DNA from: Massilia atriviolacea
Lineage (GTDB): Bacteria > Pseudomonadota > Gammaproteobacteria > Burkholderiales > Burkholderiaceae_D
Length of the DNA stretch: 64,000 nucleotides
Direction: 5' to 3'
Assembly: GCF_003953935.1 (NCBI RefSeq)
Contig: NZ_RXLQ01000003.1
Location: forward strand, 310,001-374,000
The translations under genes were made by a program, and so were the position numbers. Each line of letters opens with the position of its first letter. Positions within the stretch are counted from its first letter, which is position 1. Below are positions 11,625 through 24,041 of this stretch, in pieces. Below the pieces are notes generated by a model that was given only the letters and a program-made list of their open reading frames with translations, searched no databases and was not told the DNA's origin.

Positions 11625-11786
11625 GCCGCACGGCAAGGCCGTTTCGGCGGGGCGCCGACGGATTAATTGCTGCAAATCAATAATTCACTGCGATCCGACT
11701 GCGCTGTCTTCATAAAGTTTCTACTGGTAAATATATTCTGGATGGACGCCTCACAGGCGCCCATCGCAGTTTTTCCAGGAGACCTT

Positions 11787-12680
11787 ATGACGACCGACAC
11801 CGCAACGAGCTTGTCCGCCCCCCTGTCCGCAGCCGGGCAGGACGCGCTGCTGTACTGGCTGGACGAGGAGGCCATCGCCGCCCTGGCCGCCGCCATCGCC
11901 GGCTGGGCGCCGGCGCTTCCGTGGCGCGACATGGAAGCGATGATCCTGAGCGGCGACGACGGCCAGACCGCCTACTGGTTCGCGTCGCAGTACGACGCAC
12001 CCGACGACGGCGCGCGCGAAGCCGTGCTCACCGGCAGCGACGATGCCGACATCCTGCACGGCCGCGAGGGCGCCGACCTGCTGTTCGGCCTCGACGGCGA
12101 CGACGTGCTCCAGGATGTGCGCGGCAATAACCTGTTCGACGGCGGCGCCGGCGACGACCTCATCGAAGGCGCCGGCCAGAGCCTCTACATCGGCGGCGCC
12201 GGCAACGACACCATCACCGCCTGGGGCGCCGATGTCACGCTCGCCTTCAACGCCGGCGATGGCGACGACACCGTCATCCTGTGCGCCCGCGGCCCGGTGA
12301 CCGTCTCGCTGGGCCTGGGCATCGAGGCGGCAAACGTGACCCTCATGCGCGATGGCGCCAACCTGTTTCTCAGGACCGGCGCGGCCGAAGGCATGGCGCT
12401 GGCCGGCTGGTACGACAATCCCGGCCCCGACGCACTCTGGCTGCAACTGATCGGGGAGGGCGGAACCCGCTCCTGCGACCTGATGGCGCTGGTCGCCGGC
12501 CTGGGCGAGCAGCAGGCTGTCCCGCTCGGCCAGGACGGCTGGTACGATGCCGCTCCGGCCGGCGGCGAGCTGGCGGCGATGTATGCCACCAAGCCGGGCG
12601 GGATCGAGATCACCGGCGCGGCCGCCGCCATGTGGACCGATGCCTACGGCGCTATCGCGGGTCCGGGCCTGCTGCTGTAG
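11787..12680 (+). CDS. Small RTX (hemolysin-type calcium-binding) protein
   Basis: The start is ATG 11787 with AGGAGA six bases upstream; the frame is open to 11667 but the extension has no ribosome site. The 297-residue protein contains consecutive RTX nonapeptides of the GGxGxDxUx type at about residues 85-170 (DGDDVL, DGGAGDDLIEG, IGGAGNDTITA, AGDGDDTVI), which fold into a calcium-binding beta-roll. There is no N-terminal signal peptide, as expected for type I secretion, but no secretion ATPase or HlyD protein is nearby. No enzymatic domain is visible. It could be a short RTX adhesin or a passenger fragment. Confidence 0.85.
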   Translation: MTTDTATSLSAPLSAAGQDALLYWLDEEAIAALAAAIAGWAPALPWRDMEAMILSGDDGQTAYWFASQYDAPDDGAREAVLTGSDDADILHGREGADLLFGLDGDDVLQDVRGNNLFDGGAGDDLIEGAGQSLYIGGAGNDTITAWGADVTLAFNAGDGDDTVILCARGPVTVSLGLGIEAANVTLMRDGANLFLRTGAAEGMALAGWYDNPGPDALWLQLIGEGGTRSCDLMALVAGLGEQQAVPLGQDGWYDAAPAGGELAAMYATKPGGIEITGAAAAMWTDAYGAIAGPGLLL

Positions 12681-14183: not shown

Positions 14184-14516
14184 CTACTTTTCAAGGTGGA
14201 TGGTAAGCGACTTCGCCGCCTCGGCAATCATCTCCGGCGTCAGCGCCACCGCGAAGCCGGCCGCTTCGAAGTAGTTGAGCGCTTTGCCGTCGTGCGACAG
14301 TTCGAGGCGGCTGGTCAGGAGGCCGGCTTGTTCGAGTTTTTGAAGATGCAGGTGCAGCAAGGGCCGGCTGATGCCAATGTCGCGCGCAAGCTGGCTGACG
14401 TAGTTGCGTCCGCCCGCTGCCAGGGCGGCGACGATGCGCAGCCGGTGCGGATTGGCGAGGGCCGACAGGATCGCCAGCAACTGGTCTCCGTCGATTGGTG
14501 GTTTATTTTCTTTCAC
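14184..14516 (-). CDS. ArsR-type winged-helix transcription regulator
   Basis: 110 residues with an ArsR-family winged helix: LAILSALANPHRLRIVAALAAGG, a recognition helix in QLARDIGISRPLLHLHLQKLEQAGLL, and a wing SRLELSHDGKALNYFEA. No metal-binding cysteine motif (ELCVCDL) is present, so it is not a classical metal sensor. The start is GTG 14516; there is no clear Shine-Dalgarno sequence and the start codon lies within an inverted repeat that may be its own operator. First gene of the group running to 12652. Confidence 0.85.
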   Translation of the reverse strand: MKENKPPIDGDQLLAILSALANPHRLRIVAALAAGGRNYVSQLARDIGISRPLLHLHLQKLEQAGLLTSRLELSHDGKALNYFEAAGFAVALTPEMIAEAAKSLTIHLEK

Positions 14517-14888: not shown

Positions 14889-16007
14889 ATGACCTACCTT
14901 CACACACTCGACACCATCGTCACCACCATCGTCCTGCCGGCCGCCCCCGACACCGACCGCGACGCCCGCTTTCCGCGCGCCGCCATCGACGCGCTGGGCA
15001 AAGCCGGCCTGCTGGGCCTTGTCAGCAGCAAGGACGTGGGTGGCATGGGCCTGGGCTTGCCCGAAGCGGCCCAGCTGATCGAGCGCCTGGCCAGGGCATG
15101 CCCGTCGACGGCGATGATCGTCTGCATGCACCTGTGCGCCGCCACCGTGCTGGAAAAGACCGCCACCGAGAACGTGCGGCGCGACGTCGCCGCCGGCCGC
15201 CACCTGAGCACCCTGGCCTGGTCCGACAGCGGTTCGCGCAGCCACTTCTGGGCGCCGGTCGGCACCGCGCGCCAGGATGGCGAGGGCATCGTCATCGACG
15301 GCAGCAAATCGATGGTCACCGCCGCCGGCGAAGCCGATTCGTATGTCTGGTCGACCGCGCCGGTCGCCAGGGAAGGCGCCAGCACCCTGTGGCTGGTCGA
15401 CAGCAAGAGCGCGGGCCTCTCCGAACCGAAAGCCTTCGACGGCATGGGCTTGCGCGGCAATAAATCGTCGCCCATCAGCGCCACCGGCGTGCGCGTCGCT
15501 CCGGCGGCCATGCTGGGCGCCGACGGCGGCGGCTTCGACATCATGATCGGCGCGGTGCTGCCGGTCTTCTCGACCCTGATCGCCTCGTCCTCGCTGGGCC
15601 AGATGGACGCCGTGCTGGAAGCGGCATGCGCGCACGCCGGCGGCAGCAAGCTCGAACACCTGGGCAGCGCGCTGTCGGAACTGCCGACCATCCGCGCCTA
15701 CCTGGCGCGCGCCCGCATCCAGGCCGACATGGTGCGCACCCTGCGCGACGACACGCTCGCCGCGCTGGCAGCCAACCGTCCGGACGCCATGCTGCGCGTG
15801 ATGCAGGTCAAGGCGGCAGCGGCCGAAGCGGCGCTGGAAGTGACCGACAGCGCCATGCGCGTATGCGGCGGCGCGGCCTTCCGCAAGGATGTCGGCATCG
15901 AGCGCTACTTCCGCGATGCGCGCGCCGCCTCGATCATGGCGCCGACCTCCGACGTGCTGTTCGACTTTATCGGCAAGGCCGTCTGCGGCATGCCGGTATT
16001 CGGTTAA
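14889..16007 (+). CDS. Acyl-CoA dehydrogenase-fold flavoprotein (possibly a monooxygenase)
   Basis: 372 residues with the acyl-CoA dehydrogenase fold: an N-terminal helical domain (LGKAGLLGLVSSKDVGGMGL), a beta domain (HFWAPVGTARQDGEGIVIDGSKSMVTAAGEADSYVW) and a C-terminal helical domain ending VCGGAAFRKDVGIERYFRDAR. The segment that normally carries the catalytic glutamate (YEGT) reads IMAPTSDVL, so dehydrogenation of acyl-CoA is unlikely; this is more like flavin monooxygenases of the DszC/SfnB/HsaA type. It is co-transcribed with a PhnD-like protein (10 bases) and a ferritin-like fusion. Start at ATG 14889; longer frames lack support. Substrate unknown. Confidence 0.88.
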   Translation: MTYLHTLDTIVTTIVLPAAPDTDRDARFPRAAIDALGKAGLLGLVSSKDVGGMGLGLPEAAQLIERLARACPSTAMIVCMHLCAATVLEKTATENVRRDVAAGRHLSTLAWSDSGSRSHFWAPVGTARQDGEGIVIDGSKSMVTAAGEADSYVWSTAPVAREGASTLWLVDSKSAGLSEPKAFDGMGLRGNKSSPISATGVRVAPAAMLGADGGGFDIMIGAVLPVFSTLIASSSLGQMDAVLEAACAHAGGSKLEHLGSALSELPTIRAYLARARIQADMVRTLRDDTLAALAANRPDAMLRVMQVKAAAAEAALEVTDSAMRVCGGAAFRKDVGIERYFRDARAASIMAPTSDVLFDFIGKAVCGMPVFG

Positions 16008-16017
16008 GGAGCGCGCC

Positions 16018-16872
16018 ATGAGCACACCATTGATGATGGGCGCGGTCGCCTACGCACCGAAAGTCGTGACGATCTGGGAAGGCTTCAAGGAGTACTTCCG
16101 CCGCCACGATGTTGAGTTCGACTATATTTTGTACTCCAACTACGAGCGCCAGGTCGAAGCGCAGTTCGACGGCAGCATTGCGCTGGCCTGGAACTCGCCG
16201 CTGGCCTGGGTGCGCGCCGAGCGCATGGCGCGCGCACGCGGCCTGGGCGTGACCGCGCTGGCCATGCGCGACAGCGATTGCGACCTGACCTCGGTGCTGG
16301 TCGCGCGCACCGGTCCGGTCGTCACGCTGGAGCAGCTCAAGGGCAAGACGATCGGCTTCGGCGCGATCGACTCGCCGCAGGCGCACCTGATTCCGCTCGA
16401 CCTGCTGCGCCAGCACGGCATGCTGGCCGGGCGCGATTACAGCGCGCGCCGCTTCGACGTCCTGGGCGGCAAGCACGGCGACCATATCGGCGGCGAACGC
16501 GATGCCGCGCTGGCGCTGATGGCCGGCGAGATCGATGCCGCCTGGATGATCGACAGTAACCACATGGCTTTCTCGCGCGAGGGCGTGCTGCCGGCCGGCG
16601 CCACGGCGATCCTGGCGCGCACGGCGCCCTTCGACCACTGTAACTTCACGGTCAGCCCGGGCGCGCCGGCGGCGCAGATTGCGCGCTTCGGCGAACTGCT
16701 GCTGGCGATGAGCTGGGACGATCCCGAGGTGCGTCCGCTGCTCGAACTGGAAGGCCTGAAAACCTGGCTGCCGGGGCGCGTGAGCGGCTACGACGCGCTG
16801 GTGCGGGCGGTCGACGACGAGCGTTTCTACGATGCCGAAGGGAAGATCCTTGCAGCCGACTATCGATATTGA
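16018..16872 (+). CDS. PhnD/SsuA-like ligand-binding protein without signal peptide
   Basis: 284 residues with the periplasmic-binding-protein type II fold of the PhnD/NMT1 group: FDGSIALAWNSPLAWVRAERMARARG, LKGKTIGFGAIDSPQAHLIPLDLLR, LALMAGEIDAAWMIDSNHMAF, FDHCNFTVSPGA. Start at ATG 16018 with AAGGAG upstream. The N-terminus (MSTPLMMGAVAYAPK) has no signal peptide and no transporter genes are adjacent, so it is probably cytoplasmic and may work as a ligand-binding or catalytic partner rather than a transporter component. It overlaps the next gene by 41 bases. Function in the trio is unknown. Confidence 0.85.
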   Translation: MSTPLMMGAVAYAPKVVTIWEGFKEYFRRHDVEFDYILYSNYERQVEAQFDGSIALAWNSPLAWVRAERMARARGLGVTALAMRDSDCDLTSVLVARTGPVVTLEQLKGKTIGFGAIDSPQAHLIPLDLLRQHGMLAGRDYSARRFDVLGGKHGDHIGGERDAALALMAGEIDAAWMIDSNHMAFSREGVLPAGATAILARTAPFDHCNFTVSPGAPAAQIARFGELLLAMSWDDPEVRPLLELEGLKTWLPGRVSGYDALVRAVDDERFYDAEGKILAADYRY

Positions 16873-18052
16873 GGCCTTGGGCTTCGATGCAGGCGCCCAC
16901 CTGCTGGTCAAGCACGGCCTGCAGCAGATCGCGCCGGGCGAGTCGCTCGATGTGACGGGGACCGGCGCGGGCTGGGACGGGCAGCTCGGCGCCTGGTGCC
17001 GCAGCCAGGGCCACCCGTGCGCGGCGCTGGACGTGGACGGGTGCAAGGTGGTGCGGGTGACGCGCGGTGGCGCCTCGGCCGGCCGCTGGCGCGCCGCGCT
17101 GCACAGCGGCCACGCCGACCCGCGCATCGACGGCGCGGTCGCCACGCAGGCCAAGGCCCAATGGGGCCTGGCGGCGCGCGGCGCGACCGTGGAAGCCGGA
17201 TCGCCCGCCATGCAGTTCCGCCTCGACCAGAAGGAAGAGGTCTGGGCCGAACGCGCGGCCGACCTGTACGCGCAGGCGGCGGCGGCGCAGTGGGATCCGG
17301 AGACCGCGATCGACTGGAAGGCCGACTTCAGCTTGCCCGACATGGTCGAAGACGCGGTGGTGCAGGTGCTGACCTACATGATCGAGAACGAAGTGGCGGC
17401 GCTGGTGGTGCCGGCGCGCTTTTTGGGACAGGTGCATCCGCACTACCGCGAAGTGCAGGCGGTGCTGGCGATCCAGGTGGCCGACGAAGCGCGCCACATC
17501 GAGGTGTTCACGCGGCGCGTGCGGCTCAAGGGCCGGGAACCCGGCCTGTCGACGGCGGGCGGACAAAGCTCGCTCAAGACGCTGCTCGACGAGCAGGATT
17601 TTTCGGTGGCCGAGTTCCTGCTGTCGGTGCTGGGGGAGGGTACGTTCGTCAGCCTGCTGCACTTTTTGCATGCGTACGCGCCGGACCCGGTCACGCGCCA
17701 GATCGCGCGCCTGGCCGCGCGCGACGAAGCGCGCCACGTCGCTTTCGGCATGACGCACCTGGCGGCGCGGCTCGAACGCGAGCCGGCCTTTCGCACGCGC
17801 CTGGCCAATGCGGTCCAGTCGCGCAACGATGCGCTGGCGGCCAGCTCGGGGCTGAACGAGGAGGTATTCGATGCGCTGATCCTGCTGGCGGCCGGCGAAC
17901 TGACCCCCGGCGCGATCGCGGCCGGCTACCTGCGCGTGCAGCAGCTGATGGTCGACATGGCCGAAGGACGCCAGTCGCGCCTCGAGCGGCTCGGGTTTTC
18001 CAAGGCGCAGGCGCGCCAGTTGTCGGCGCTGCATACCCGCAATTTCATGTAA
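16832..18052 (+). CDS. TusA-like domain fused to a ferritin-like diiron domain
   Basis: 406 residues. Residues ~10-80 (GFDAGAHLLVKHGLQQIAPGESLDV...WCRSQGHPC) resemble TusA/SirA but lack the CPxP sulfur-carrier cysteine. The rest is a ferritin-like four-helix domain with a full diiron ligand set: Glu185/Glu187, Glu219xxHis222 (DEARHIE), Glu269 and Glu299xxHis302 (DEARHVA). This fits an O2-activating oxygenase or desaturase-type enzyme. ATG 16832 overlaps the PhnD-like gene; TTG 16850, preceded by GGGAAG, is an alternative start. Tight overlap with the two upstream genes argues that all three act together. Confidence 0.85.
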   Translation: MPKGRSLQPTIDIEALGFDAGAHLLVKHGLQQIAPGESLDVTGTGAGWDGQLGAWCRSQGHPCAALDVDGCKVVRVTRGGASAGRWRAALHSGHADPRIDGAVATQAKAQWGLAARGATVEAGSPAMQFRLDQKEEVWAERAADLYAQAAAAQWDPETAIDWKADFSLPDMVEDAVVQVLTYMIENEVAALVVPARFLGQVHPHYREVQAVLAIQVADEARHIEVFTRRVRLKGREPGLSTAGGQSSLKTLLDEQDFSVAEFLLSVLGEGTFVSLLHFLHAYAPDPVTRQIARLAARDEARHVAFGMTHLAARLEREPAFRTRLANAVQSRNDALAASSGLNEEVFDALILLAAGELTPGAIAAGYLRVQQLMVDMAEGRQSRLERLGFSKAQARQLSALHTRNFM

Positions 18053-20335: not shown

Positions 20336-22144
20336 TCAGGTCCCATCCCAGCGATTCTGCCTGTCGTCCTCGGCCAGTTCCGCATCCATCGCGAACATGG
20401 CTTCGAGCTCCTCGCGCGCCTGCTTGGCCACCGACAGGAATTGTTCCTTGTCCTTGTAATACGGATAGATCTTGTCGAGGCTGCGCAGGTTGAACAGGCG
20501 GAACTTGCTGGCCGCCTGGCGCGCCCGGTACGCGCCGAAGCCGAGCTCGTGCAGCACGTCGCGCCCCAGCATCAGCGCCGCCTCGAACGTTTCGCGCTGG
20601 ATGATGGTCACGCCGCGGTCGCGCAGGTCGAAGTAGTGGGTCACATTGCGCGCGCGCGCCATGATTTTCAGGTCCGGGAAGGTGCGCCGCACCGCGTCCA
20701 CCAGCTTCAGGCTGTCGTCGATATCGTCCACCGCCACCACCAGCGCGCGCGCCCGCGCCGCCCCGGCCGCGTGCAGCAGGTCGATGCGGGTCGCGTCGCC
20801 GTAAAACACTTCGGTGCCGAAGCGGCGCACCAGGTCGATCTGGTCCGGATCGTGGTCGAGCACGGTCAGCTTGACGCCGTTGGCGGTCAGCAGGCGCCCG
20901 ACGATCTGGCCGAAGCGCCCGAAACCGGCGATGATCACATGCTCGTCGTTGGGCGCGATCCTGTCGGCCTGGCGCGTCTTGTCGGCGCGGTAGCGCGGCG
21001 CGATCAGGCGGTCGTGGGCGATCAGCAGCAGCGGCGTGACCACCATCGACAGCGCCACCACCACCACCAGCATCGATGCCACCTCGGCGCTGAACACCTT
21101 GGCCGCCTCGGCCGCGCCGAACACGACGAAGGCGAATTCGCCGCCCTGCGACAGAATAAAGGCGAACAGCGCCTGCTGGCTGCGCGCAATCTCGGCGATC
21201 TTGCTGATCCCGTACAGGACTGCGATCTTGATGCACAGGAAGGCCGCCACCAGCCCCAGGATCAGCCACGGCTGCGCCATGAACACGCCGAAGTCGACCG
21301 ACATGCCGACCGCGATGAAAAACAGTCCCAGCAGCAAACCCTTGAACGGCTCCAGGTCGGTCTCCAGCGCGTGCCGGTATTCGGAATCGGCCAGCAGCAT
21401 GCCGGCCATGAAGGCGCCCAGCGCCATCGACATGCCGACCCACTGCATCAGCAGCGAAATGGCGATCACCAGCAGCAGCGCGAAGGCGGTGAAAATCTCG
21501 CGCATGCCGGTCTTGACGATGATGCGCAGCAGCGGACGCACCAGGTGGCGTCCGGCGAAGATCAGGCCGCCGATCACGGCGGCCACTTTCAGCACGCCCA
21601 GCCAGCCCTGTTCGCTGCCTTCGGCCGCCGCCACGCCCAGCAGCGGCACGATGGCGATCATGGGGATCGCGGCCATGTCCTGGAACAGCAGGATGGCAAA
21701 ACTGGCCGAGCCGGTCGGGGTGGTCATCAGGTTGCGTTCATCCAGTGTGGCCAGGGCGATCGCAGTCGACGACAGCGACAGCCCGAGCGCGGCGATCAGC
21801 GCCACTTTCCAGTCGATCCCGGCCAGCATGGCGGCCGCGCACAGGGCGCCTGTCACGCCCAGCACCTGGGCCGCGCCGCGCCCGAAAATCGCGCGCCGCA
21901 TGGCCCACAGGCGCTTCGGTTCGAGTTCGAGCCCGATCACGAACAGCAGCAGCACCACCCCGAATTCGGAAATGTGCAGGATGTCTTCGACCTCGCCGAT
22001 CAGGCCCAGCCCCCACGGGCCGATGGCGATCCCGGCCAGCAGGTAGCCGAGCACGGCGCCGAGCCCGAGTTTCTTGGCGATCGGCACGGCGATCACCGCC
22101 GCCGCAAGGTAGATCAGCGCGTTAAGCAGCAAACCGTGTTCCAT
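20336..22144 (-). CDS. kefC: KefC-like CPA2 cation:proton antiporter with RCK domain
   Basis: 602 residues: about 12-13 transmembrane helices (residues 1-390), including the CPA2 signature FALLL...GMSMALGAFMAGMLLADSEYRH, then a cytoplasmic RCK/TrkA-N domain starting VIIAGFGRFGQIVGRLL that binds nucleotide or glutathione adducts. It moves K+ (or another cation) out against H+. ATG 22144 is chosen; longer frames overlap the upstream gene. The upstream gene encodes a KefF/KefG-like flavoprotein, the usual ancillary subunit, 26 bases away, which supports the Kef assignment over a plain Na+/H+ exchanger. Confidence 0.9.
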   Translation of the reverse strand: MEHGLLLNALIYLAAAVIAVPIAKKLGLGAVLGYLLAGIAIGPWGLGLIGEVEDILHISEFGVVLLLFVIGLELEPKRLWAMRRAIFGRGAAQVLGVTGALCAAAMLAGIDWKVALIAALGLSLSSTAIALATLDERNLMTTPTGSASFAILLFQDMAAIPMIAIVPLLGVAAAEGSEQGWLGVLKVAAVIGGLIFAGRHLVRPLLRIIVKTGMREIFTAFALLLVIAISLLMQWVGMSMALGAFMAGMLLADSEYRHALETDLEPFKGLLLGLFFIAVGMSVDFGVFMAQPWLILGLVAAFLCIKIAVLYGISKIAEIARSQQALFAFILSQGGEFAFVVFGAAEAAKVFSAEVASMLVVVVALSMVVTPLLLIAHDRLIAPRYRADKTRQADRIAPNDEHVIIAGFGRFGQIVGRLLTANGVKLTVLDHDPDQIDLVRRFGTEVFYGDATRIDLLHAAGAARARALVVAVDDIDDSLKLVDAVRRTFPDLKIMARARNVTHYFDLRDRGVTIIQRETFEAALMLGRDVLHELGFGAYRARQAASKFRLFNLRSLDKIYPYYKDKEQFLSVAKQAREELEAMFAMDAELAEDDRQNRWDGT

Positions 22145-22170
22145 CGTTACAGAGCTTTCAAAAGGGGAGG

Positions 22171-22728
22171 TCAGGCGGCCGTCAGCGCGCTCAGGCGGGC
22201 GGCAAAGGCGTCGACGTGGGCGCCGAGCGTTTCTTCGCTGGACTGGTGGGCGCCATGCAGGATGTGCGGGGCGATCCACTCCATGCCGCACAGGGCGGCG
22301 ATCTGGCGGTAGGGCGGCAGAAAGGCGTCGAAGTGGTGGCCGTGCGCCGCGTCCGGGGCGTAGGCCTCGGCCGGGCTGCCGGTCGAGGCCACCAGCCAGA
22401 AGTGCTTGCCGCGCAGCGCCTCGGCGCCGGCGCCGTAGGCCCAGCCGGGCACCAGCACCGTGTCGACCCATTCCTTGAGCAGGGACGGCATGCCGTACCA
22501 CTGTATCGGATGGAGAAACACCAGGGCGGCGGCGTCGGCCAGGTTGTCCTGTTCGGCCGCCACGTCGATGTAAAAGTCGGGGTAGGTTTCGTACAGGTCG
22601 ACCAGCTCGACCCCGGGCACGCTGCGCGCCGCCTGCGCCAGGCGGCGGTTGACGCGCGAACGCTGCGGCGCCGCGTGCGCGAAGATGACCAGTACCTTGC
22701 GCAGCGGCGCGCCGGCGCCGGCCGTCAC
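22171..22728 (-). CDS. KefF/KefG-like NAD(P)H quinone reductase (antiporter ancillary protein)
   Basis: A 185-residue flavodoxin-like protein: KVLVIFAHAAPQRSRVNRRLA, LVDLYETYPDFYIDV, FLHPIQWYGMPSLLKEWVDTVLVPGWAYG, the hallmark segments of the MdaB/KefF family that binds FMN/FAD and activates Kef antiporters. It starts with GTG 22728, whose last bases form the TGA stop of the chitinase upstream (GTGA overlap), so its translation is coupled to the chitinase. It is followed by the KefC-like antiporter. Longer frames to 22788 lie inside the chitinase and are rejected. Confidence 0.88.
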   Translation of the reverse strand: MTAGAGAPLRKVLVIFAHAAPQRSRVNRRLAQAARSVPGVELVDLYETYPDFYIDVAAEQDNLADAAALVFLHPIQWYGMPSLLKEWVDTVLVPGWAYGAGAEALRGKHFWLVASTGSPAEAYAPDAAHGHHFDAFLPPYRQIAALCGMEWIAPHILHGAHQSSEETLGAHVDAFAARLSALTAA

Positions 22729-24041
22729 CGCGCCTCGAGCATGGCTTTGGACAGCGCGAAGCCGGCGTCGTCCTGGTCCAGCGCCCACGACATCATGCCG
22801 CCCAGGCGGTGGTCGCGCACGTAGGCGGCTTTTTCCTTGATCACCAGCGGGTCGTCGTAGGTCCAGAAGTTGCCGTTATCGTAGGTCCACAACTGCTTGC
22901 TGACCGGATGGTAGAACTTGGGCGCCTTGCGCGCCGAGATGGTCGAGTATTTCTCGGTGCCTTCCTCGAAGCCCTTGGCCGGCCCGGTGGCGCTCTGGTA
23001 CAGGCCGTAACGCACCGCCGGCACGCCGCTCCAGCCGCGCGCGTAGAACGGCACGCCGATCACCAGTTTTTTGGCCGGCACGCCGGCTTTCAGGAAGCGC
23101 TCGACCCCGGTGTGCACGCTCTGCTTGTCGGTGTCGGGGCTGCCCGGATCGGGGTACAGGTTCGAATGGAAGCCGGTCGGCCCCTGCCTGGTCCAGCCGC
23201 CGTGGAAGTCGTAGGTCATCAGGTTGATCCAGTCGAGCGACTTGACGTACTTGGCCGGTTCGGTGGCGTCGGTGGTCTTGGCGCCGCTGTTGACGGCCGC
23301 CGTCAGGTAGTACTTCTTGCGCTGCTTCTTGCCGAGGGCGTTGAGCTGGCTGCGGAACTCGGCCAGCAGCAGCGTGAAATTCTGCTTGTCCGCCGGGCTG
23401 ATGGTGTTGTACGCCATCAGCGGCACGCCCGGATACTCCCAGTCGATGTCGAAGCCGTCGAACAGGCCGGCCGCGGCGCCCTTGCCGCCATGGCCGTTGA
23501 GCACCGGCAGGTCGCCCTTGATGTACAGGTCGATGCAGGACGACACCAGCGCGCGCCGCAGCGGCGCGGTGGCGGCGCCGGCCGAGAACCAGCGCGACCA
23601 TTCGGCCCCGCCGATGGCCAGCAGCACCTTCAGCTTGGGATGCTTGGCCTTGAGCTGGCGCAGCTGGTTGAAGTTGCCCGCCAGCGGCTGGGTCGCCGTG
23701 TCGGCCGTGCCGTCGACCGATTCGGCCGCCGTGAACGGACGCGCGTAGTCGAGCGTGGCGCGCATGCCGCCGCCGTCGGCGGCATCCTTGATGTCGCGCC
23801 CGCTGTCGCAGCGGTAGGTGTTGTCCGGCATCTTGTACAGATTGGCGAAGGCGTAGTTCAGGAAGGTGAAGCGTCCCGCCACGCCGGCCTGGTCGAGCTG
23901 TTTCAGGCGAAAGCCGCTTTCGGTACTCCAGGCGGTGTAGTACGAGCCCACTTCCACCGGCGCGGCCGGGGCGGCGGCGGATGCGGCGGCGGCCAGGGCC
24001 AGGGCGCAGGTGAGCGTGGTCATGCAGGTCTTGTTCAACAT
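22725..24041 (-). CDS. Secreted GH18 chitinase
   Basis: 438 residues with a signal peptide (to about residue 23) and a full GH18 barrel: FLNYAFANLY, KVLLAIGGAEWSRWFS, the catalytic DGFDIDWE that matches DxxDxDxE exactly, NLMTYDFHGGW, and GVPFYARGWSG. It hydrolyses chitin to oligosaccharides outside the cell. No binding module is attached. It lies 13 bases downstream of the NagX-like gene and overlaps the next flavoprotein gene by four bases. Unlike the GH18-like lipoprotein at 3585-4760, all catalytic residues are in place. Confidence 0.93.
   Translation of the reverse strand: MLNKTCMTTLTCALALAAAASAAAPAAPVEVGSYYTAWSTESGFRLKQLDQAGVAGRFTFLNYAFANLYKMPDNTYRCDSGRDIKDAADGGGMRATLDYARPFTAAESVDGTADTATQPLAGNFNQLRQLKAKHPKLKVLLAIGGAEWSRWFSAGAATAPLRRALVSSCIDLYIKGDLPVLNGHGGKGAAAGLFDGFDIDWEYPGVPLMAYNTISPADKQNFTLLLAEFRSQLNALGKKQRKKYYLTAAVNSGAKTTDATEPAKYVKSLDWINLMTYDFHGGWTRQGPTGFHSNLYPDPGSPDTDKQSVHTGVERFLKAGVPAKKLVIGVPFYARGWSGVPAVRYGLYQSATGPAKGFEEGTEKYSTISARKAPKFYHPVSKQLWTYDNGNFWTYDDPLVIKEKAAYVRDHRLGGMMSWALDQDDAGFALSKAMLEAR

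Follow-up and report, generated by a model that had tools for sequence, protein, structure and literature searches.

A near-constant pair of flavoprotein and PhnD-fold genes and its alternative third genes, viewed from a Massilia atriviolacea locus

One question raised by a 64,000-nucleotide stretch of Massilia atriviolacea DNA (contig NZ_RXLQ01000003.1, positions 310,001 to 374,000; hereafter the window, whose numbering is used throughout) is which pathway could employ, side by side, an acyl-CoA-dehydrogenase-fold flavoprotein, a binding protein without leader and a diiron protein carrying a TusA-like domain. These proteins are encoded by three consecutive genes, here named g1, g2 and g3, which a sequence-only reading of the locus had regarded as a trio performing an oxidation with O2, perhaps with a link to sulfur. 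Comparison with related loci revealed that only the g1-g2 pair is near-constant, and that the third slot is occupied by one of three unrelated enzymes. Our best explanation, held tentatively and with slightly less than even confidence, is that g1-g2 form a cytosolic module of an organosulfur (possibly selenium) pathway, the last step of which has been re-invented by three chemistries. It was built on the conservation and co-occurrence of the genes, the swap in the third slot, the shared TusA-like domain, the intact metal ligands, the absent cysteine and the absent catalytic base.

Conservation of the locus and exchange of its third gene

The three open reading frames (ORFs) were intact and located on the forward strand. 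The first one, g1 (14889..16007), encodes a 372-amino acid flavoprotein without catalytic base, similar to Rv1679/FadE16; g2 (16018..16872) encodes a 284-amino acid leaderless protein of the PhnD/PtxB fold, similar to Rv1680; and g3 (16850..18052) encodes a fusion of a TusA-like with a diiron ferritin-like domain. The 10-base gap described before between g1 and g2 was found again. The 41-base overlap of g2 and g3 given in the sequence-only reading was not sustained, since it rests on the ATG at 16832, and the relatives favour the TTG at 16850. The equivalent of this TTG is the only in-frame start listed near there in L001, L006, L008, L009 and L011, and it is kept in the 15 close loci in which the start is covered (L001-L014 and L020). 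Hence, g3 likely starts at TTG 16850 and overlaps g2 by 23 bases. A Shine-Dalgarno-like AAGGGAAG is located ahead of this start (16838..16845, forward strand), and in the close loci similar sites precede the TTG, usually resembling AAGGGAA.

A search with g3 provided 20 related loci, in 17 of which g1, g2 and g3 appeared in this order. Locus L015 was cut by a contig end, and L017 and L018, from Caulobacteraceae, contained g2-g3 without g1. The search for a conserved three-gene neighbourhood that had been suggested as a check was thus carried out, and the families co-occur beyond this genome. Among 215 genomes of the family, 19 matched the g3 profile at 1e-3; 15 of them have a real g3 (split by contig ends in G509) and four gave partial or short matches. 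Exactly the same 15 genomes were recovered with g2 at 1e-30 (hypergeometric 2e-23, relatedness ignored), and g1 was present at 1e-40 in all 15 and in none of 12 g3-less genomes picked from the other 200. Within the genus of the window the trio is patchy, since 9 out of 15 genomes carry it. It was also present in the gammaproteobacterium Peristeroidobacter soli (L016) and in Planctomycetota (e.g. L019). In the loci compared, no gene outside the trio was common to different lineages, the flanks being different.

The second type of third gene was encountered in Planctomycetota, where g2 was detected at 1e-40 in 23 of 255 genomes. In thirteen of these loci, L019 among them, g1 and g2 are accompanied by a g3 no more than about 1 kb away (contig ends truncate L106 and L126). 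In another nine the slot is taken by a MetE-like gene, and each of these operons also includes an OsmC-like gene (L140 is cut). A 1.1 kb gap in planctomycete loci was at one point taken for the loss of the third gene; this was rejected, since the gap holds the MetE-like gene. In these proteins the similarity to MetE is confined to its catalytic half, as exemplified by the 387-amino acid protein of L128, which matches the catalytic domain PF01717 (7e-33). The zinc motif (HCEC: H-x-C, E, C) and the S, E and D homocysteine motifs are kept in the 10 long rows of the alignment, in which L140 is a fragment and the L137 and L145 proteins come from outside the slot. These residues were assigned by motif from the list in the accessible part of PMC7857596, E. 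coli MetE not being included in the alignment. Fusions were also found: in L145 TusA is fused to MetE beside a tandem-g2 protein, and the L137 locus carries a TusA-OsmC fusion together with a MetE-like gene, at 4-5 kb from its g1. The TusA parts of both fusions keep a cysteine. A radical-SAM-like match in L145 was discarded, as it corresponds to the TusA-MetE fusion.

The MetE-like slot protein might be a stand-in methionine synthase, which the presence of MetH would argue against: at 1e-100, MetH matches were obtained for 38 out of 40 genomes tested, and for 30 they exceeded the curated cut-off. In three genomes of the MetE type the match was weak (a fragment in G977, low-scoring partial matches in G895 and G970), and because of these short or low matches the idea of a missing methionine synthase is weakened rather than closed.

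The third type is a fusion of a TusA-like part with a radical S-adenosylmethionine (radical-SAM) protein of the Rv1681 family, so that the slot contains either the TusA-like/diiron protein of the window, this TusA-like/radical-SAM protein or the core-MetE-type zinc protein. We take Rv1679-Rv1681 to be adjacent in M. tuberculosis. The actinobacterial examples come from plasmid records. In that of M. vanbaalenii, relatives of g1 (47%) and g2 (40%) lie between genes of the Rv1678 and Rv1681 families that score over cut-off, and in that of R. opacus the neighbour of the pair is a fragmentary Rv1681-like stretch that seems to be frameshifted. The Miltoncostaea pair has in its vicinity an Rv1681-like protein whose N-terminus is missing (225 bits, cut-off 380). 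Two genomes of the phylum of the window, G200 and G217, which may be rhizobia, have an Rv1681-family gene convergent to g1-g2 (497 and 498 bits, cut-off 380). The pair is adjacent, in the order Rv1679-Rv1680, in the window and in L055, L056 and L057. At 1e-40, G217 was the only one among 250 genomes of its class with g2. Neither G200 nor G217 was among the g3 matches of the genome sample, in which both are presumably included. The TusA-radical-SAM protein was found at 1e-30 in none of 20 g3-bearing genomes and in the two others tested (2 of 22 in total). A search for the radical-SAM family in 120 genomes of the phylum gave 110 matches at 1e-3, none over cut-off, and was uninformative because all 14 controls matched as well.

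The relationship between the two TusA-like parts was addressed by comparing the N-termini. Those of the radical-SAM proteins matched Pfam TusA with E-values of 0.012, 1.3e-3 and 6e-4. They are TusA-like without the cysteine in the G200/G217 gene and in M. vanbaalenii, the latter starting past that position. A profile of the g3 N-terminus scored 11.4, 8.2 and 7.7 bits against the three radical-SAM N-termini, and shuffles reached at most 6.1 (3000 shuffles of the G200 segment, 2664 reported). In the opposite direction, the radical-SAM profile matched 4 of 12 planctomycete g3 N-termini with 20 to 29 bits (best 29.3, 1.1e-7). On trees obtained by a quick method and rooted at the midpoint, the slot type requires at least two changes for g2 (52 rows) and at least three for g1 (50 rows). 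In these trees L126 was assigned to the diiron type and L057 to the radical-SAM type, no label was given to L055 and L133, and L144 and L145 were left out.

These results preserve the idea of a conserved unit of three families, although the trio is not the right unit: it represents one of three versions of a wider module with a g1-g2 core. We give an even chance to the proposal that diiron O2 enzymes, radical-SAM enzymes and methionine-synthase-type zinc enzymes are interchangeable last components of one undescribed, widespread g1-g2 pathway, of which Rv1679-Rv1681 would be one version. The TusA-like domain, present in the first two (in the third once) and devoid of cysteine in the diiron and radical-SAM proteins, would be the shared docking module.

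Properties of the three proteins and their surroundings

The g1 protein fits the acyl-CoA-dehydrogenase fold and profiles (Pfam Acyl-CoA_dh_1 3.1e-19 and dh_N 7.6e-15). Its best NCBIfam match is NF049984 (Rv1679), with 381 bits, below the curated cut-off of 600. In the alignment, IMAPT of g1 is placed opposite IYEGT of short-chain dehydrogenases, so that MAPT replaces YEGT, and the position of the YEG glutamate is occupied by A in 49 and by G in 1 of 50 rows. An alternative position of the catalytic base exists in isovaleryl-CoA dehydrogenase (PMC12369846). This second position, as we placed it in g1 from the dehydrogenase alignment, holds F in 50 of 50 rows. There is thus no glutamate at either known base position in any of the 50 rows, and the previous description of a dehydrogenase fold deprived of its base is borne out. 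Some Massilia-like genomes (G488, G434) contain a second, more distant Rv1679-like paralog (L078 7843-9000, and L079); that of L078 has an MSPT motif, scores 248 bits and lies beside a hybrid sensor kinase.

The g2 protein was matched by Pfam Phosphonate-bd (3.5e-27) and, as its best NCBIfam family, by NF049985 (Rv1680) with 237 bits, below the curated cut-off of 400. Its structural model (predicted local distance difference test, pLDDT, 76) found PhnD 7s6g as the best PDB match (E 5.9e-17), with PtxB, ArrX, AioX and Thi5 among the lower-ranked ones, and the PhnD-type binding-protein fold was thus recognised. The protein starts nearly at the first strand (MSTPLMMGAVAY), as read by eye without a predictor, and for this reason it appears to have no leader. 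These observations agree with the earlier description of g2 as PhnD-type and cytoplasmic. No ABC (ATP-binding cassette) families were detected in the 10 neighbouring ORFs of the window (8.4-22.8 kb) or in the next gene, and a role of g2 as transporter component was rejected owing to the missing leader and to the lack of ABC genes among these scanned neighbours. Sixteen positions of g2 were analysed in 52 rows (51 different, window included). Twelve are invariant (Y12, W20, Y42, R84, D87, D118, S119, H153, D155, E160, H207 and C208), the others being N59 and K152 (50 rows each), T211 (44) and H156 (40). This set of invariant residues would seem to exceed what a bare binder needs, and g2 is probably an enzyme or a cytosolic binder. 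Tandem double g2-like proteins occur in L144 (7989-9911) and L145 (7963-9939), the latter with a lipoprotein-like leader by eye.

The g3 protein has an N-terminal TusA-like domain (amino acids 1-75, 16850..17074, forward strand), in which GxDxG is found in place of the CPxP cysteine, and a C-terminal diiron ferritin-like domain (amino acids 136-400, 17255..18049, forward strand) with ligands E181, E213, H216, E263, E293 and H296. All six ligands of this AurF-type set are kept in the 35 full-length rows (the 307-amino acid protein of L106 was excluded from this count). Pfam AurF gave 27.3 bits, below the gathering cut-off of 29.6, and a profile search of the PDB with g3 gave no match at 0.01. 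The model (pLDDT 75, unreliable at amino acids 76-134) is nearest, in its diiron part, to the aldehyde-deformylating oxygenase (ADO) 4rc6 (TMt 0.82), the azoxy synthase VlmB 8wvr and R2lox. Because the diiron ligands are intact, an O2-using oxidation, as hypothesised before, continues to be reasonable.

Amino acids 1-75 of g3 have the beta-alpha-beta-alpha-beta-beta topology of TusA in the AlphaFold model (block means of pLDDT 80-90 for amino acids 1-70). Pfam TusA scored 12.3 bits with the whole protein and 16.0 with the isolated N-terminus (cut-off 28.6), and it was the top match for all 14 isolated N-termini scanned (five from g3 and one from radical-SAM proteins, then six and two), with E-values from 3e-6 to 0.25, all below cut-off. 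One of four whole planctomycete g3 proteins passes it (L123, 28.8 versus 28.6). The g3 search also matched true TusA proteins with LCPMPIL in two other genomes. The diiron protein with a TusA-like domain was thus correctly recognised from the outset. At the column of the CPxP cysteine, however, D is found in 28 and G in 7 of the 35 rows and C in none; the preceding column has no C either, and L019 has one three columns earlier. Since the cysteine is missing in the 35 rows, the TusA-like domain itself is unlikely to be a sulfur carrier, and this role was rejected. The hint at sulfur that had been drawn from this domain is therefore weakened; sulfur is suggested instead by the MetE-like and OsmC genes and by the fusions.

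Regarding the surroundings of the trio, a scan of the operon for promoters and terminators provided nothing convincing, and Rfam had no match in the window. A PA3715-like gene (50.7 bits, cut-off 70) starts 7 bases downstream of g3, and a small ArsR-like regulator (14184-14516, HTH_5 3.9e-10) is divergent upstream of the trio. Both flanking genes are common only to L001-L004, and the PA3715-like gene also has a copy in its own genome. Farther away, the window has an ORF matching an RTX calcium-binding repeat (11667-12680, HemolysinCabind 1.2e-8) and, at 20336-22788, a potassium-efflux-like pair of Na/H exchanger and TrkA_N protein together with a flavodoxin-like protein. Genes for a TIGR04282-type transferase, GT2 and GT87 were observed beside g1-g2 in G200/G217 and Miltoncostaea (L052 2921-7743, L051 2530-7367, L055 5601-8764), accompanied in G200/G217 by a nucleoside-phosphorylase-like gene.

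Possible chemistry and rival explanations

In the proposed mechanism, g2, with its phosphonate/sulfonate-binding-protein fold retained in the cytosol, would bind, and probably chemically activate, a small metabolite with an oxyanion group; an organosulfur or organoselenium compound is the most likely candidate. The g1 protein would act without the usual abstraction of an alpha-proton, through C-S cleavage or flavin-oxygen chemistry, sulfinopropionyl-CoA desulfinase being a precedent. The cysteine-less TusA-like domain of g3 may be a docking or substrate-holding module that places the substrate at the diiron centre, and this centre, whose ligands are observed, would oxidise it with O2. In other lineages the TusA-like/radical-SAM or the core-MetE-type zinc protein probably gives the same outcome minus the diiron/O2 step, because it fills the same slot. 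Thiol or organosulfur chemistry, with selenium as alternative, is suggested by the combination of a zinc-thiolate enzyme, OsmC, a TusA-derived domain and a dehydrogenase-fold protein without base. In this scheme we infer the substrate, the reaction and the equal outcome of the three slot versions.

Several observations weigh against this scheme. The assignments of substrate and reaction are indirect, and the three slot proteins could act differently on a shared product of g1-g2. Gene g1 was not found at 1e-60 in the assemblies of the two Caulobacteraceae metagenome-assembled genomes (L017, L018), one of the 23 planctomycete loci (L133) has no recognised third gene, and in several others g3 is not directly beside g2, with gaps of up to about 1 kb. 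In Miltoncostaea, g2 is of the diiron-linked type but radical-SAM proteins were seen on the 21 kb covered, and the Rv1681-like protein there has no TusA-like part. As for the shared domain, nearly every single TusA match is below the Pfam cut-off, 8 of the 12 planctomycete g3 N-termini were not matched by the radical-SAM profile, and comparing the profile of whole g3 with that of the radical-SAM proteins gave a weak result (12% probability, E 0.0024). Finally, MetH matches were obtained in all nine MetE-type genomes, six of them over the curated cut-off.

Different explanations have to be considered for the same set of genes. The trio could be three unrelated enzymes that happen to be neighbours and are passed on jointly, as most trio genomes seen are close relatives; with co-occurrence across phyla, lineage-specific flanks and a 23-base overlap, this is hardly credible and is disfavoured. 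An oxidation of a non-sulfur substrate (amine, phosphonate or arsenic metabolite) of the AurF/VlmB N-oxygenase or ADO type, with the TusA-like domain as structural adaptor and a secondary MetE association, is unlikely without being negligible. ADO, VlmB and R2lox are indeed the nearest folds of g3, and for g2 the closest proteins are phosphite/phosphonate binders, a resemblance to the arsenite/arsenate binders AioX and ArrX being seen as well. The TIGR04282-type transferases, named after arsenosugar, that are near the pair in G200/G217 and Miltoncostaea (in L051 by similarity) point in the same direction; nevertheless, when the loci compared were searched by tblastn with this type of protein (1e-8), only L051, L052 and L055 matched. 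Moreover, core-MetE and OsmC in the same operons, both also fused to a TusA-like domain, argue for thiol chemistry. A folate-independent methionine or methyl pathway like that of MesD/MesX, in which g1-g2 would make a methyl donor, the MetE-like protein would pass it to a thiol and the diiron and radical-SAM proteins would handle the methyl group differently, appears rather improbable. It would explain that the MetE-like proteins are reduced to the catalytic half with zinc and homocysteine motifs kept, and in three of the nine MetE-type genomes (G977, G895, G970) MetH is only short or low-scoring. In addition, MesD requires O2 and its partner is thought to be an oxidase, according to the accessible part of PMC7857596. 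However, with MetH over the curated cut-off in six of these nine genomes no missing enzyme is filled there, and it is not evident how methionine synthase activity could come from a diiron or radical-SAM protein.

A metabolism specific for selenium, with the module handling selenide or a seleno-organic compound, is considered improbable, in spite of the genomic context of some loci. In Peristeroidobacter soli, g1 starts 31 bases past the end of a selenocysteine tRNA gene (L016 5932-6021, Rfam; 27 bases by ARAGORN), the only Rfam match in seven other loci, and selA-selD occupy the opposite flank. The selB-selA-selD genes of Miltoncostaea are found roughly 6 kb away from g1. One planctomycete g2 matches the 'selenate' binder TIGR04553 with 81 bits (cut-off 250). 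In the MetE-like gene of L137 (16048, G791) an in-frame TGA, either a selenocysteine or a nonsense codon, takes the place of a conserved cysteine codon, which reads TGC in the five relatives checked. Against these points, the stem after this TGA was no better than shuffles, selC is a common insertion site of islands, and selA/selD-like ORFs were common only to L016 and L055 among the 24 loci compared. The presence of selD in all 15 trio genomes is uninformative, because 185 of the 215 family genomes have it over cut-off.

The organosulfur reading with a g1-g2 core brings three unrelated hypothetical genes together in a module that can be tested and is linked to the mycobacterial Rv1679-Rv1681 families. 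A slot with three unrelated metal enzymes constrains the chemistry, since diiron/O2, radical-SAM and zinc-thiolate enzymes should all be able to arrive at the same intermediate, and the locus is an example of a TusA-like domain employed in a cysteine-less form.

Comparison with known systems

The claim that no pathway with this gene set is described agrees with searches of the open-licence PMC literature, which gave no such pathway and no tested function for these families. The component families are already catalogued in NCBIfam; for the three-way slot and the shared TusA-like domain, the same searches turned up no description. For g1, the closest comparison is 3-sulfinopropionyl-CoA desulfinase, a dehydrogenase relative that has lost the glutamate (AGG for YEG) and eliminates sulfite (PMC8360864). 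Both share the acyl-CoA-dehydrogenase fold minus the glutamate, and NF042439 scores g1 with 91 bits; in contrast, the equivalog cut-off of 600 is far above this score and a CoA substrate is putative for g1. The planctomycete version resembles MesD/MesX in joining a core-MetE, with its motifs kept, to O2-dependent chemistry. Unlike it, MesD/MesX has no g1-g2-like or TusA-like partner named in the accessible part of PMC7857596, and the slot of the window lacks a MetE-like gene. No DUF1852 protein turned up among the scanned neighbours, in which no search was aimed at DUF1852.

The Rv1678-Rv1681 families (NF049986, NF049984, NF049985, NF049973) are the nearest relatives of the module: g1 and g2 match Rv1679 and Rv1680 best, and the two genes lie side by side in that order. 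A difference lies in the third gene, which in those families encodes a TusA-like/radical-SAM rather than a TusA-like/diiron protein, and the window proteins are below the curated cut-offs. In the parts of the papers that were available, structural comparison makes Rv1680 a putative component of a phosphonate transporter (PMC8562490); Rv1681 is presented as a possible MoeX, a molybdopterin protein, and as a urine antigen (PMC4202705).

The fold and the helix-2 motif relate g3 to the TusA sulfur carriers (AWCRSQGH in g3 and in the TusA of L060, AWCQVNGH in L061), from which it differs in the absence of the CPxP cysteine. With AurF, VlmB and ADO it shares the ligand set and fold; unlike these diiron proteins, it is fused to a TusA-like domain, is below the AurF cut-off and has other operon partners. 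Swaps between O2-dependent and O2-independent enzymes are known for AcsF/BchE and HemF/HemN. As in those pairs, an O2 enzyme and a radical-SAM enzyme would share a role in the g1-g2 module; here, in contrast, they have an accessory domain in common and are joined by a third, MetE-type enzyme, their isofunctionality being putative.

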